Origin: Candidatus Thioglobus autotrophicus
GTDB lineage: Bacteria; Pseudomonadota; Gammaproteobacteria; PS1; Pseudothioglobaceae
Direction: 5' to 3'
Assembly: GCF_001293165.1 (NCBI RefSeq)
Contig: NZ_CP010552.1
Location: 186,001 to 250,000, forward strand
Length of the DNA: 64,000 nucleotides
Notes under the pieces: generated by a model
Told to the model about the DNA's origin: nothing
Databases searched by the model: none
What the model saw: the letters and a program-made list of their open reading frames with translations, nothing else
Program-made: the position numbers and the translations under genes
Shown here: piece after piece, positions 56,940-61,996 of the stretch
Layout: every line of letters begins with the position of its first letter
Numbering within the stretch: position 1 is the first letter of the stretch

Positions 56940-58016
56940 TTAACAAAAATCCCCAATTACTTGATCTAGCTGCTCTTTTTGATAATAATCGCTTAGATAT
57001 GCCTCGCCTAATTTTTTCATTAGGATCAGTCGAATATTGCCATCAATCACTTTCTTATCAACGCTCATAGCTGATAAGAACTCAGAAGCGCTAATTTTAC
57101 CGTCTACGCTGATTGGTAAATTAGATTTTTCTAATAAATCTTGAACCTGATCGACATCTTGATGGCTTAAATCCCCTGCCAATTGCGACAACTTGGCCGC
57201 CATGAGCATGCCCACTGAAATAGCTTCGCCATGTAAAAACACGCCATAACCCAGTGTGTTTTCAATCGCATGACCAAAAGTATGACCTAAATTTAACAAG
57301 GCTCTTTTGCCTGATTCCAGCTCATCTTGTGCAACAATATTGGCCTTATCTGTACAAGATTGGTACACCGACTGAATGATTAAGTCCTTATTTCGTCGCA
57401 TTAAGTTTTGAATGTTATCTTGCAAAAATGTTAAGAAATCAGCGTTGCCTAATAAACCATATTTGATCACTTCAGCCATGCCAGCCGCATATTGTCTATC
57501 GTCCAATGTATCTAGCGTATCCACATCAATCAGCACACACTTTGGCTGATGAAAAGCGCCAATCATGTTTTTTCCTAATGGATGATTAACCCCGGTTTTA
57601 CCACCGACACTCGAATCGACTTGAGAAAGCAAGGTAGTCGGGATTTGAATAAAACTAACACCTCGTTGATAGCTGGCAGCAGCAAAGCCTGTCATATCTC
57701 CCACGACACCGCCACCCAAAGCGATTAGCGTACAAGATCGATCAAAGCGATTTTCCAATAGCGCATCAAAAATTAAGTTAACGGTATCCAGTGTTTTATA
57801 TTGCTCACCGTCAGGTAGCACTACTTGCGCTACATTCAACGAACCCAGCAGGGATTTAACTTGCTCTAAGTACAAAGGTGCAACCGTGGTATTGGTCACA
57901 ATCATCACCTGCTTTCCAGCAATATGATTGGTTAACAATTTTTCTTGATCTAACAACCCTTGGCCAATATAAATCGGATAAGACTTTTCCCCTAAATCAA
58001 GCTCTAATGTTTTCAT
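56940..58016 (-). CDS. aroB: 3-dehydroquinate synthase
   Basis: 358 residues; second step of the shikimate pathway, NAD and Zn dependent. LPDGEQYKTLDTVNLIFDALL, LGGGVVGDMTGFAAASYQRGV, zinc ligands in NLGHTFGHAIE and HGEAISVGM. One-base overlap with ileS upstream. The pathway also supplies prephenate, the cofactor source used by TrhP. Confidence 0.97.
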   Translation of the reverse strand: MKTLELDLGEKSYPIYIGQGLLDQEKLLTNHIAGKQVMIVTNTTVAPLYLEQVKSLLGSLNVAQVVLPDGEQYKTLDTVNLIFDALLENRFDRSCTLIALGGGVVGDMTGFAAASYQRGVSFIQIPTTLLSQVDSSVGGKTGVNHPLGKNMIGAFHQPKCVLIDVDTLDTLDDRQYAAGMAEVIKYGLLGNADFLTFLQDNIQNLMRRNKDLIIQSVYQSCTDKANIVAQDELESGKRALLNLGHTFGHAIENTLGYGVFLHGEAISVGMLMAAKLSQLAGDLSHQDVDQVQDLLEKSNLPISVDGKISASEFLSAMSVDKKVIDGNIRLILMKKLGEAYLSDYYQKEQLDQVIGDFC

Positions 58017-60784
58017 TAGGCAAACTCTCGTTTTTCGCCACTACCGACAACATTTTCAACACAACGACCACAAAGCTCAGTGTGCTCGGCATTCTGAGCC
58101 ACATCCTCACGATGATGCCAACAACGCACACATTTTTCATGCTTGGATTTACTCACTTCAACAAATACACCTTCGCCCGCTTCAACACTCTGTTGAGTTT
58201 TATCACTGAGTGGATGAATGCGTGCATAAGAGGTGATAAAAACAAAGCGTAGCTCATCTCCCAGTTGACTCAATGCCTGAATGGTTTTATCGTCACAATA
58301 TAGATCCACTTCTGCATCAAGCGATGAGCCGATAATCTTATCGCTACGCATGGCTTCCATTTGCTTACGAATAAATGGGTTGATATTTCTTGCGGTATCG
58401 ATCGCTGTATTTTGATAGCCTACTGATAAACCTTCATACCACTCACTCAAGAAAATACTTTGAGTTTTTTCCTCGGGCATATTCTGCCAAATTTCCTCAG
58501 CAGTAAATGATAATACAGGTGCCAGCCAATGAACCATCGCCTCCAGAATATGATTAAGCGCCGTTTGTGCACTACGCCTAGCTCTTGAATCTTCCCCAGT
58601 GGTGTATTGTCTGTCTTTAATAACATCTAAATAAAATCCACCCAAATCATTACTACAGAAATTCAAAATCAATTGAATGGCATGGTGAAAATTGTACTGC
58701 TCGTAAGCTTGCAAAATTTGTACTTGTAAATCTGCTGTTTTAGCGACAATCCACTTATCTAAATCTAGCATACTATCGGCAGTTAGCGTATGCTGCTGAG
58801 GATTAAAACCACTGGTATTTGCCAACATAAAGCGCAGCGTATTACGAATACGTCTGTACGAATCAGCGCTACGCTTTAAAATTTCATCAGAGACGGTCAT
58901 CTCACCGGTGTAATCGGTAGAGGCAATCCATAAGCGTAAAATATCAGCACCCAGATTATTAATCACTTTTTGTGGGCTCATTACATTGCCCAACGATTTG
59001 CTCATTTTCTTGCCGTCTTTATCAACTGTAAAACCGTGTGTTAGTACTTGTTTGTAGGGCGCTTTACCATTAATAGCGACTGAGGAAATAAGCGACGATT
59101 GGAACCAGCCGCGATGCTGGTCAGAGCCTTCTAGATATAAATCAGCCACATCAGATAGACCTTCTCTGGCCTTTAGAACAGCGAAATGACTCACACCAGA
59201 ATCAAACCAAACATCTAGTGTGTCAGTGGCTTTTTCATAATCATCAGCATCATCACCCAACAGCTCTTGAATGTCAGTTTCAAACCAAGCTTCAATGCCG
59301 TTTTTTTCAATCATGGCTGAAACACTAGTAAACAGCGCTTGAGTATTTGGATGTAGTTCGCCCGTTTGCTTATGAGTAAACAAAGTAATCGGCACACCCC
59401 AAAATCGTTGGCGGGAAATACACCAATCTGGGCGATTACCTACCATCAGCTCGATGCGTTTTTTACCCCAATCTGGAATCCAATCAACCTTAGGGATTTG
59501 CTCATTAACTGCATCTCTTAAGCCATTATCCTGCATAGAGACAAACCACTGTGGGGTTGCTCTAAAAATAACTGGAGTTTTATGGCGCCAACAATGCGGG
59601 TAAGAATGCATCAATGACTCATGTTTGACCAAGGCATTGTTTGATTTTAAAATCTCAATAACACTGGCATTTGCCTTAAAAATAAATTGACCAGCCAATA
59701 GCTCGGTATCTTCAAAGAACACCCCGCGACCATCCACCGGACAATTAACCGGTAAATCGTATTGTTTGCCCACAACAAAATCTTCTTGACCGTGCGCAGG
59801 CGCTGTATGCACTGCGCCCGTACCCGCATCAGTGGTGACATGATCGCCTAAAATAATTGGTACTTGTTTGTCATAAAATGGGTGCTGTACTTTCAAACCT
59901 TCTAGCTCGCTACCCGTAAACACTTGGGTGGCAACACTTGCCTCTGACTCATAGCGAGATAAAGCATCTTGGGCTAATTCTTGAGCTAATAATAGATATT
60001 CATCACCCATATCTGCCAATACATAGTTAAGCTCAGGATGTAACGCTACCGCTTCATTTGCAGGCAGTGTCCAAGGCGTTGTGGTCCAAATAACCACAAA
60101 AACAGGCTTATCGACCTTAAAAATTGCATCACCAAGAACACGGAATTTAACATCGATCGCATCTGATTGCTTGTCTTTGTATTCAACCTCAGCCTCAGCC
60201 AAAGCTGAGCCACACTCTGTACACCAATGCACAGGTTTGTAGCCTTTAGAAACATGGCCATTTTCAACAATCTTGCCCAAGGCGCGCACAATATCCGCCT
60301 CATATTGAAAATCTTTAGTTAGATATGGATTATTCCAATCGCCCAAAATACCCAAACGCTGAAAATCAAGCTTTTGTTTAGCCACTTGGGTGTCGGCATA
60401 TTTACGGCATTCTGCTCTAAAAGTATTGGCATCAATCTTGACGCCAACTTTGCCTTTTTTCTTTTCAACATTATGCTCAATCGGCAAACCGTGACAATCC
60501 CAACCCGGCACATACGGTGCATCAAAACCCGATAAAGACTTTGATTTAACAATAATATCTTTTAAAACCTTGTTAACTGCATGACCAATATGAATATCGC
60601 CGTTTGCATAAGGTGGGCCGTCATGTAGAGTGAATTTAGGCTTGCCTTGATTATGTGCTCGAATTTGAGCATACAGATCATCCTCTTGCCATTTTTTAAG
60701 AAATCCGCCCTCACGATTTGCAAGATTTGCTTTCATTGCAAACTTGGTGGCAGGCAGGTTTAAGGTGGATTTGTAATCAGACAT
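58016..60784 (-). CDS. ileS: Isoleucyl-tRNA synthetase
   Basis: 922 residues of class I IleRS. HIGH motif in [21 protein letters not shown] in [16 protein letters not shown]1 editing domain with [14 protein letters not shown] and [18 protein letters not shown], and a C-terminal zinc finger ([11 protein letters not shown] and CGRCVENV). [11 protein letters not shown] is the typical N-terminus. Two micro-protein genes lie upstream. Confidence 0.98.
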
Positions 60785-60879: not shown

Positions 60880-60993
60880 CTACTTTTTAGATCTAAAATA
60901 AAGCTTCAAATAAATAGCCAATGCCACAGAGCTAAGCATAAAAAAGACAGCCGCCCAAAAGACACCATCTGTATTTAATTCGTTAATAGGCAT
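60880..60993 (-). CDS. Micro-membrane protein A (37 aa), previously uncalled
   Basis: MPINELNTDGVFWAAVFF... to RSKK; one span at about residues 11-32 with basic C-terminus (N-out/C-in by the positive-inside rule). It aligns without gaps to micro-protein B 61 bases upstream over M-x-x-NELNTD-x-VF. Within eight shared residues, five codons differ synonymously (for example TTA/CTT, AAT/AAC, ACA/ACC, GTC/GTG, TTT/TTC), which supports protein-level constraint. A hairpin holds part of its AGAGAG ribosome site. Function unknown; small respiratory-complex subunits are one analogy. Confidence 0.72.
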   Translation of the reverse strand: MPINELNTDGVFWAAVFFMLSSVALAIYLKLYFRSKK

Positions 60994-61001
60994 AAGCAAC
61001 T

Positions 61002-61023
61002 CTCTTGTTATTAATCACAAGAG
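61002..61023 (-). promoter_or_regulatory. Hairpin sequestering the ribosome site of micro-protein A
   Basis: CTCTTGT and ACAAGAG form a 7-bp stem with an eight-base loop. On the minus strand the 3' arm contains AAGAG of the probable Shine-Dalgarno, eight bases before the start, so folding could limit translation. Confidence 0.5.
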
Positions 61024-61054
61024 AATCATATAGGTTTATTGGGAATTTGAGGTG

Positions 61055-61177
61055 TTATTTCTTAAAGAATTTGAATCTTCTGCCAATAACAAAAATAATA
61101 AAACTAACGATCGCCAGTGCAACCATTAACAGGCTCATGTAGAACACCGTATCGGTGTTAAGTTCGTTCATAATCAT
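61055..61177 (-). CDS. Micro-membrane protein B (40 aa), previously uncalled
   Basis: MIMNELNTDTVFYMSLL... to GRRFKFFKK; one span (about residues 11-31) and a strongly basic end. A good AAGGA Shine-Dalgarno lies seven bases before the ATG at 61177 (a second in-frame ATG at 61171). Its NELNTD-x-VF segment is shared with micro-protein A. A TAGAAT -10 (61215-61210, minus) predicts a start near 61203, and a perfect 10-bp palindrome of FNR/CRP type is centred about 41.5 bases upstream of that. Probably oxygen- or redox-regulated; partner unknown. Confidence 0.75.
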   Translation of the reverse strand: MIMNELNTDTVFYMSLLMVALAIVSFIIFVIGRRFKFFKK

Positions 61178-61209
61178 TGTTGTTTCCTTTTCTTATCTTT
61201 AACAACAAC

Positions 61210-61256
61210 ATTCTATCAACAATGCAAAAATAAATATTTGACCTAAGTCAAATATT
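61210..61256 (-). promoter_or_regulatory. FNR/CRP-family-like promoter upstream of the micro-protein pair
   Basis: AATATTTGAC-CTAA-GTCAAATATT (61233-61256) is a perfect 10-bp inverted repeat containing TTGAC-N4-GTCAA, close to the FNR consensus TTGAT-N4-ATCAA. TAGAAT at 61215-61210 on the minus strand puts a predicted start at about 61203, so the dyad centre (61244.5) is at -41.5, the class II FNR position. The same stem followed by TATTTTT could also end the rluB message, so the two readings compete. Confidence 0.6.
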
Positions 61257-61267
61257 ATTAGATTAAC

Positions 61268-61996
61268 TTAAAGTTTAACGGAATTAAGCAATAACTTAAC
61301 TTGTCCCGGTTTTAAATAGTCATATTCATTAGCTCTAAGATTTTCAGGCATACGAATTTCGCCAAAACGAATACGAATTAAGCGCGAAACTTTAAAGCCT
61401 AAAGACTCCCAAAGACGTCTAACTTCACGTTTTCTTCCTTCTTTAAGCACCACCTTATACCAACGATTCGCCCCTTCGCCACCACCAATAGTGACACGAT
61501 TAAACTTAGCATATCCATCATCCAGCTCAATACCGGTGGTGAGTTGTTTGATATCTTCACTTTCCACTTGACCTAATACGCGAACCGCATATTCACGATC
61601 AATTTGTGAGCTAGGATGCATGAGCTTGTTAGCCAAATCACCATTATTGGTAAACAGCAACAAACCCGAAGTATTGAGATCTAAGCGTCCCACCATAACC
61701 CAGCGAGACTCCTTCGGCAACAAACTATAAACACTCTTGCGACCTTCATCGTCTTTATTAGAGCAAATGACACCCGCTTGTTTGTTGAGGATTAGCACCT
61801 TAGTTTCTTCTTCTTGATAGCGCTCAAGATCCACACTTCTACCGTCGATTTTTACTTTATCGGTTATTTCACACTTGTCGCCAATTTGCGCAGCCTTATT
61901 GTTAATCTCAATACGACCCTGTTCAATTAATCTTTCTGCCCAACGACGTGAACCATAGCCCGCAGTCGCAATCAATTTTTGTATTCTTTCAGCCAT
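61268..61996 (-). CDS. rluB: 23S rRNA pseudouridine(2605) synthase
   Basis: 242 residues with an N-terminal S4 domain (MAERIQKLIATAGYGSRRWAERLIEQG) and an RsuA/RluB catalytic domain with Asp in MVGRLDLNTSGLLLFTNNG; EGRKREVRRLWESLGFKVSRL closes it. RluB acts on 23S U2605 in E. coli. Two bases from trpS. Confidence 0.93.
   Translation of the reverse strand: MAERIQKLIATAGYGSRRWAERLIEQGRIEINNKAAQIGDKCEITDKVKIDGRSVDLERYQEEETKVLILNKQAGVICSNKDDEGRKSVYSLLPKESRWVMVGRLDLNTSGLLLFTNNGDLANKLMHPSSQIDREYAVRVLGQVESEDIKQLTTGIELDDGYAKFNRVTIGGGEGANRWYKVVLKEGRKREVRRLWESLGFKVSRLIRIRFGEIRMPENLRANEYDYLKPGQVKLLLNSVKL

Follow-up and report, generated by a model that had tools for sequence, protein, structure and literature searches.

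CydX and similar small subunits are tiny helices that stabilise a terminal oxidase, and CcoS is a small single-span protein in the biogenesis of the cbb3 oxidase, a respiratory enzyme of low-oxygen conditions. Bacteria of the SUP05/Thioglobus lineage, whose aerobic respiration is served by cbb3, move between oxic and anoxic water in oxygen minimum zones. For the cbb3 oxidase, PMC8267372 describes CcoH as a further small single-span protein in biogenesis, and CcoM of Pseudomonas as serving the stability of the oxidase and not its activity. The same paper presents Campylobacter CcoX and CcoY as single-span proteins encoded after ccoP and needed for full oxidase activity; in Campylobacter jejuni, deletion of CcoX abolishes oxidase activity, while deletion of the 33-aa CcoY lowers it (PMC8267372).

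The window analysed here is a 64,000-nt stretch of the Candidatus Thioglobus autotrophicus genome, a single contig of 1,512,449 bp. A 483-bp gap separates the stop codon of rluB (61268) from the ATG of ileS (60784) and holds two small ORFs, B and A, on the minus strand. The features of the locus, with the basis of each assignment in brackets, are as follows.

61268..61996, minus strand: rluB, the upstream neighbour (order kept in 15 loci)
61238..61251, no strand assigned: FNR/ANR-type dyad TTGACCTAAGTCAA (sequence; at most one mismatch in 14/16 B genes)
61210..61215, minus strand: −10-like hexamer TAGAAT of B (sequence; position kept in B genes)
61183..61190, minus strand: Shine-Dalgarno-like AAAGGAAA of B, 5′ of its ATG (sequence)
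61055..61177, minus strand: ORF B, a 40-aa single-span NELN microprotein, first of the pair (ATG start, orthologues, dN/dS)
60999..61027, minus strand: stem-loop between B and A, covering the Shine-Dalgarno-like AGAGAG of A (folding against shuffles, z −4.56)
60880..60993, minus strand: ORF A, a 37-aa single-span NELN microprotein and paralogue of B (ATG start, orthologues, dN/dS)
58016..60784, minus strand: ileS, the downstream neighbour (order kept in 15 loci)

The B protein, MIMNELNTDTVFYMSLLMVALAIVSFIIFVIGRRFKFFKK, has an acidic N-terminus and a basic C-terminus over its 40 residues; the A protein, MPINELNTDGVFWAAVFFMLSSVALAIYLKLYFRSKK, comprises 37 residues when taken from its ATG, the mechanical ORF list beginning A two codons earlier, at TTG. 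The original prediction had described two tandem single-span ORFs of these lengths in the rluB-ileS gap, sharing NELNTD-x-VF, with a Shine-Dalgarno sequence before B, and on re-reading all of these elements were present. Our recount likewise agreed with its five synonymous codon differences among the eight residues common to A and B. Because the frames are kept in relatives, the pairwise dN/dS is low and the distance from dyad to hexamer is nearly constant, the locus is more than a chance arrangement of ORFs.

Conservation was examined by tblastn with B over 57 genomes and by profile search over 83 genomes of the same family, which together placed an intact member in 17 of the 83. Every one of the 12 genus genomes had at least one copy, as did G026 and G101 (group g6) and G027 (g8), while in group g2 one intact gene each was retained by G085 (a B gene) and G086 (an A gene). 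In all 15 loci inspected for gene order, namely 14 with copies plus L019, the place of the array was flanked by rluB and ileS. The copy number varied. Four genomes (G003, G005, G006 and G011) have a third copy, C, on the upstream side of B. Copy A was lost or interrupted in 5/12 genus genomes: G007, G008 and G009 lack it, and in G005 and G011 it is broken close to the start; in G006, copy A carries GCG in place of the usual start codon. At two loci (L007 and L008) the interruption is a short insert near the start of A, whose ends in L008 are inverted repeats as judged by eye, and which is perhaps a miniature mobile element. By eye, the G029 gap contains broken remnants of both B and A. Decayed remnants of the array were observed between rluB and ileS in several g2 genomes of the clam-symbiont type (L019, positions 1490-1730; L049; L051; L052).

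Summed over equal-length pairs with pS<0.6, dN/dS was 0.089 for B (21 pairs, one of them identical), 0.25 for A (10 pairs) and 0.11 for C (one pair). When every equal-length pair was taken, including many that are saturated, pN/pS was 0.20, 0.39 and 0.19 for B, A and C, respectively, and the B genes of G000 and G001 differ at 10 synonymous and 0 nonsynonymous sites. Values near 1 had been named in advance as speaking against the claim that both frames are conserved and selected, and those obtained (0.09, 0.25 and 0.11 when rounded) are well below. The claim thus stands for the retention of both frames in relatives and for selection, with the qualification that the conservation of A, lost or interrupted in five genus genomes, is weaker. 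The array is kept at rluB-ileS across the genus under purifying selection. Short, single-span, basic-tailed proteins in tandem copies within an intergenic gap would also suit hydrophobic peptides of the type I toxin kind; yet this place is held genus-wide under purifying selection, the relatives described below lie in cbb3 operons, promoter-like matches are at shuffle level (3 vs 2.5), and the Rfam families matched no better than chance (a single match, E 0.99), so that we regard a toxin-like array as very improbable.

A perfect TTGAC-N4-GTCAA dyad, which occurs once in the 64-kb window, precedes B. The looser form TTGAY-N4-RTCAA occurs three times in the window and 51 times in the genome, compared with 8 for a reversed-pattern control. 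In the window genome, the dyad centre lies 29 nt before TAGAAT, which would put it near −41.5 for a transcript beginning about 7 nt past the hexamer. To this predicted start site, B shows the spacing of an FNR/ANR class II site (TTGAY-N4-RTCAA near −41.5). For the related genes, the best TTGAY-N4-RTCAA within 130 nt upstream was recorded for 31 genes (16 B, 11 A and 4 C), the counts being non-independent. Among the 16 B genes, 10 had no mismatch, 4 had one, G002 had two (a level reached by 27% of shuffles) and G010 had three. In the 14 B genes with at most one mismatch, the distance from centre to hexamer was 29 nt in 13 and 28 nt in G004, which has a further hexamer at 41 nt from the dyad centre. 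TAGAAT or TACAAT stood 28-29 nt away from the centre of the dyad in 15/16 B genes, a count that includes G002 (28 nt, with its two-mismatch dyad). The dyad and its distance of about −41.5 from a TAGAAT-based start, as originally predicted, therefore agree with the sequence, and the class-II-like spacing is conserved in B genes; the dyad before B is thus predicted to occupy a class II activator position.

The other copies have different upstream regions. A dyad with fewer than two mismatches was found in the 130 nt upstream of 0/11 A genes, which suggests that A is probably carried on the transcript of B or has its own promoter; TAGAAT stands before A in G027 and G086. For the C genes, the distance from centre to hexamer was only 15-17 nt in G003, G005 and G011 (loci L004, L007 and L008) and 28 nt in G006, the shorter spacing in three genomes resembling a putative repressor geometry. 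In the host genome, ccoN and norC are each preceded by a TTGAY-N4-RTCAA dyad; judged by eye, −10-like hexamers follow at 29 nt but also at about 13-17 nt, which leaves the geometry of both promoters ambiguous. The host encodes three proteins of the CRP/FNR type that exceeded the cut-off. One of them (L094, gene at G000:C1 about 1284.8 kb) has a cysteine cluster of the form C-x9-C-x2-C near the N-terminus. The other two (L095 and L096, at 789 kb and 1271 kb of G000:C1) have their cysteine cluster at the C-terminus, and a TTGAY-N4-RTCAA site is found no more than about 1 kb from each.

Folding of leaders, started 5 nt past the hexamer, gave a mean z of 0.07 across all 31. Five of the 11 A leaders carried the stem-loop before A (z −1.49 to −4.56), which the other six lacked; it also occurs in two interrupted copies of A. 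Seven leaders, picked for showing the stem-loop, yielded a consensus of 10 pairs, three of which have double-sided changes. This structure could set the ratio of A to B. A hairpin over the B leader was rejected, since most of its 5′ arm would fall upstream of the predicted transcription start and the B and C leaders being no stabler than shuffles. A terminator-like stem-loop with a T-rich tail was observed inside the B frame (61130-61103, minus strand), where 1 was found and 0.3 would be expected from shuffles.

The relatives outside the family were searched for with profile A1, built from the rluB-ileS proteins only, over 369 genomes of the class. All nine matches outside the family at E≤1e-3 were short ORFs between ccoP and ccoG (G135, G140, G429, G289, G166, G180, G273, G377 and G397; best whole-genome E 2.7e-10). 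Between 1e-3 and 1e-2 there were four places, of which that in G299 (E 0.007) again lies between ccoP and ccoG, those in G305 and G302 lie elsewhere, and the fourth is a second place in G180, within a 404-aa frame; matches at 0.01-0.05 were left out of the counts. A profile scan of genome contigs returned 14 loci, 12 of them apparently from family genomes already in the set and one (L143) a Ruthia MAG; in a Piscirickettsiaceae CG07 MAG (L142), a protein beginning MNELNNDWVFYG is encoded between ccoP and ccoG. Profile A2, searched over 398 genomes of the phylum, matched 14 other genomes at E≤0.01, and the loci inspected in seven of these, including G305, added three ccoP-ccoG ORFs, one in the same class (G792) and two in the phylum outside it (G512 and G665).

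The presence of the operonic gene was uneven among class loci. After ccoP, the small ORF was found in 0/30 loci with the highest FixP_N scores and in 16/30 hand-chosen for low FixP_N scores, a split which suggests that the small gene is tied to one subtype of cbb3 operon; the HMM behind the count of 16 includes some of the counted sequences and is thus non-independent, while 15 of the 16 were also found as plain single-span ORFs. In 16 of the low-scoring loci, ccoP was followed downstream by a ccoG carrying the HAKR motif, with the ORF between them in 15 (not in L212); L208 has the small ORF with no ccoG visible, and HAKR also occurs in two spurious-looking frames (L216 and L217). Across L193-L219, we observed a single-span gene of 37-51 aa with a start of the type M-x-D-x-V-x-x-G-S-I in cbb3 operons of various proteobacteria.

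The relationship between the two sets of proteins was evaluated by hhalign against 60 column shuffles, made within the N-part, the helix and the C-part. For A1 against 22 non-NELN ccoP-ccoG proteins, the probability was 96.5 and the score 39.2, with a shuffle mean of 12.9 and maximum of 18.3; against five NELN-type operonic proteins, the score was 66.4, with a maximum of 21.9 among the 60 shuffles. Profile comparison has limited statistical power for one-helix families of 37-40 residues. These scores argue for homology of the window family with the ccoP-ccoG protein, the similarity going beyond hydrophobicity. What is new here is that the distant relatives of the A/B family lie mainly between ccoP and ccoG, and that this lineage has its copies outside the oxidase operon and multiplied. 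A plasmid search with two ccoP-ccoG proteins gave no match, 47 pattern matches on viral contigs included 0 confirmed cases, and the titles and abstract openings of the literature searched do not name a small ccoP-ccoG gene in gammaproteobacteria.

These relatives make the cbb3 oxidase the specific candidate for the complex that A and B would serve, and the original suggestion of a small subunit of some respiratory complex is thereby supported and narrowed. A role in another FNR-controlled complex, such as nitric oxide reductase or nitrate reductase, would accord with the FNR-type dyad that also precedes norC; however, the distant relatives stand beside ccoP and ccoG and none stood beside nor or nar genes in the inspected loci (about 3-4 kb each), which makes such a role improbable, a little more so than the kinship with CcoM weighed below. 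The link to cbb3 rests on gene neighbourhood in other lineages; A and B lie here between housekeeping genes.

In the host genome, the gene order is ccoN-ccoO-ccoQ-ccoP followed by norC. The window genes are not between ccoP and ccoG, and no ORF of the ccoP-ccoG kind was found after the host's ccoP, before norC; the same ORF was present in 0 of 30 FixP_N loci of the family. The host has one FixP_N match. Among the 83 family genomes, 16 have both a member and FixP_N, one has a member only, 32 have FixP_N only and 34 have neither (Fisher P 4e-4, uncorrected for kinship), where FixP_N over the cut-off includes, in some g4 genomes, proteins lacking the usual CcoP start. The lone member without FixP_N over the cut-off is in G027, an 85%-complete MAG (1/35 of the genomes without FixP_N). 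No intact member was found in 32/48 family genomes with FixP_N. Of the 12 genomes of g2, a group to which Ruthia-type clam symbionts belong, 11 have CcoP and only 2 an intact microprotein gene, one each, which indicates that the microprotein is dispensable for having the oxidase.

Taken together, A and B would be members of an unnamed family of cbb3-linked small proteins, encoded in an FNR-type-controlled array outside the cco operon and probably acting as accessory parts of the oxidase; we put the probability of this reading at roughly three in four. In the SUP05/Thioglobus lineage, the gene stands in the rluB-ileS gap, instead of the cco operon, in up to three copies, and the FNR-type dyad before B would raise expression of the array when oxygen falls, alongside ccoNOQP with its own dyad. 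Each protein would cross the membrane by one helix, its acidic N-terminus facing outward and its basic tail on the cytoplasmic side, and would lie against the core of cbb3, stabilising the oxidase or aiding its assembly in the manner of CcoM or CcoX. A study of the proteomes of Ca. Thioglobus autotrophicus EF1 (PMC6509183) reports that Cbb3 was higher in oxic than in anoxic cells, a difference shared by 96% of the proteins common to both; a higher oxic level of Cbb3 is not what simple FNR co-induction predicts.

A and B could instead be factors for cbb3 assembly or copper insertion and not resident subunits. The gene is next to ccoG, which encodes a cupric reductase, in other lineages, and CcoS and CcoH are further small single-span proteins of cbb3 biogenesis; in the host genome, though, ccoG is not adjacent to the array, and we consider an assembly role doubtful, if the most credible of the alternatives weighed here. 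Within the preferred reading of A and B as oxidase accessory parts, a more speculative extension is that A, B and C, with their different FNR geometries, are interchangeable small subunits, isoforms within one cbb3 oxidase, swapped along the oxycline, the ccoP-ccoG family being tied to a CcoP subtype. B, and C of one genome, would then have the activator type of geometry and C of three genomes the repressor type. We rate this extension as unlikely, somewhat below the assembly role.

If A and B are such accessory parts, duplicated oxygen-controlled oxidase microproteins would give a direct handle on the tuning of cbb3. EF1 is in culture, with oxic and anoxic proteomes (PMC6509183). The operonic relative, an unnamed gene that occurs in the cbb3 operons of various proteobacteria, lacks a convincing Pfam or NCBIfam match and could be tested in culturable species.

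Database comparisons were made for each set of proteins. When B and A (the latter without its first Met) were compared with Pfam and NCBIfam, nothing exceeded the cut-off; A gave a sub-threshold match to FixP_N (E 0.1, with the same query). Several candidate families were rejected as chance matches: NCBIfam searches of the 25 A1 members touched seven families with 1-2 members each (best HGxxPAAW, E 4.5e-4, one member), and those of the 27 ccoP-ccoG proteins touched 14 (best E 0.0027), while Pfam gave 31 families for the latter, 25 of them listed, the best being ATPase_gene1 (E 6.8e-4, 20.1 bits vs a cut-off of 26.6). PDB searches with profiles A1 and A3 likewise produced chance matches only, and a DUF3149-type protein (L185), similar in form, was set aside since it matches a different Pfam family. 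By hhalign, A1 scored 18.6 against CcoQ (12 sequences), with 1/60 shuffles as high. In profiles of A1 and of A-type copies, the NELN start scored 20.9-21.9 against an ELNN/RELNN stretch that precedes helix 1 of CcoP, with maxima of 16.3-21.2 among 60 shuffles, and for non-NELN members against the CcoP N-terminus 4/60 shuffles were as high; this likeness seems weak and is perhaps convergent.

CcoM from the cbb3 oxidase of Pseudomonas stutzeri (NF041600; PDB 5djq, chain N) has 36 aa, one helix, an acidic start and a basic tail, and so equals A and B in size and build; a close CcoM homologue, L144, likewise stands without flanking cco genes. Moreover, two of the 27 ccoP-ccoG proteins gave sub-threshold matches to NF041600 (best E 0.016), and all 27 together scored 17.3 against CcoM by hhalign, with 1/60 shuffles as high. 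The window family itself, in contrast, had 0 of 25 members matching NF041600 at E≤10; no CcoM over the curated cut-off (40 bits) was found in any of the 83 family genomes; and a search of PDB chains with profile A3 did not find 5djq_N at E≤10. Against CcoM, represented by only three sequences, A1 scored 12.4, with 18/60 shuffles as high; the 22 non-NELN proteins scored 15.2 (9/60), and for the five NELN-type operonic proteins 6/60 were as high. Membership in CcoM was rejected on the NF041600 cut-off and on hhalign scores at shuffle level, and true orthology of A and B to the Pseudomonas protein appears improbable. In a separate comparison, CcoM (3 sequences) aligned to CcoQ (12) with a probability of 91.6 and a score of 29.8, with 0/60 shuffles as high, and the two may be of common origin.

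CcoM shares the general build of A and B but has no significant similarity to the window family, in which A and B are tandem paralogues at rluB-ileS. CcoX (DUF4006) and CcoY are small single-span proteins like A and B, with genes that directly follow ccoP; neither B nor A matched DUF4006 at E≤10, and DUF4006 was absent among the 25 listed of the 31 Pfam families found for the ccoP-ccoG proteins. CcoQ is a small single-span subunit encoded with ccoNOP, whereas A and B are not between ccoO and ccoP and do not have a sequence of the YFYAFRPKN type, and the host genome has a separate ccoQ. CydX is of the same general kind, with a different oxidase and a different sequence. A further counterpart is the unnamed protein of 37-51 aa whose gene lies between ccoP and ccoG and which is homologous to A and B by profile; it occurs as a single copy in the cco operon at the loci inspected, often without the NELN start, whereas A and B stand in tandem at rluB-ileS.
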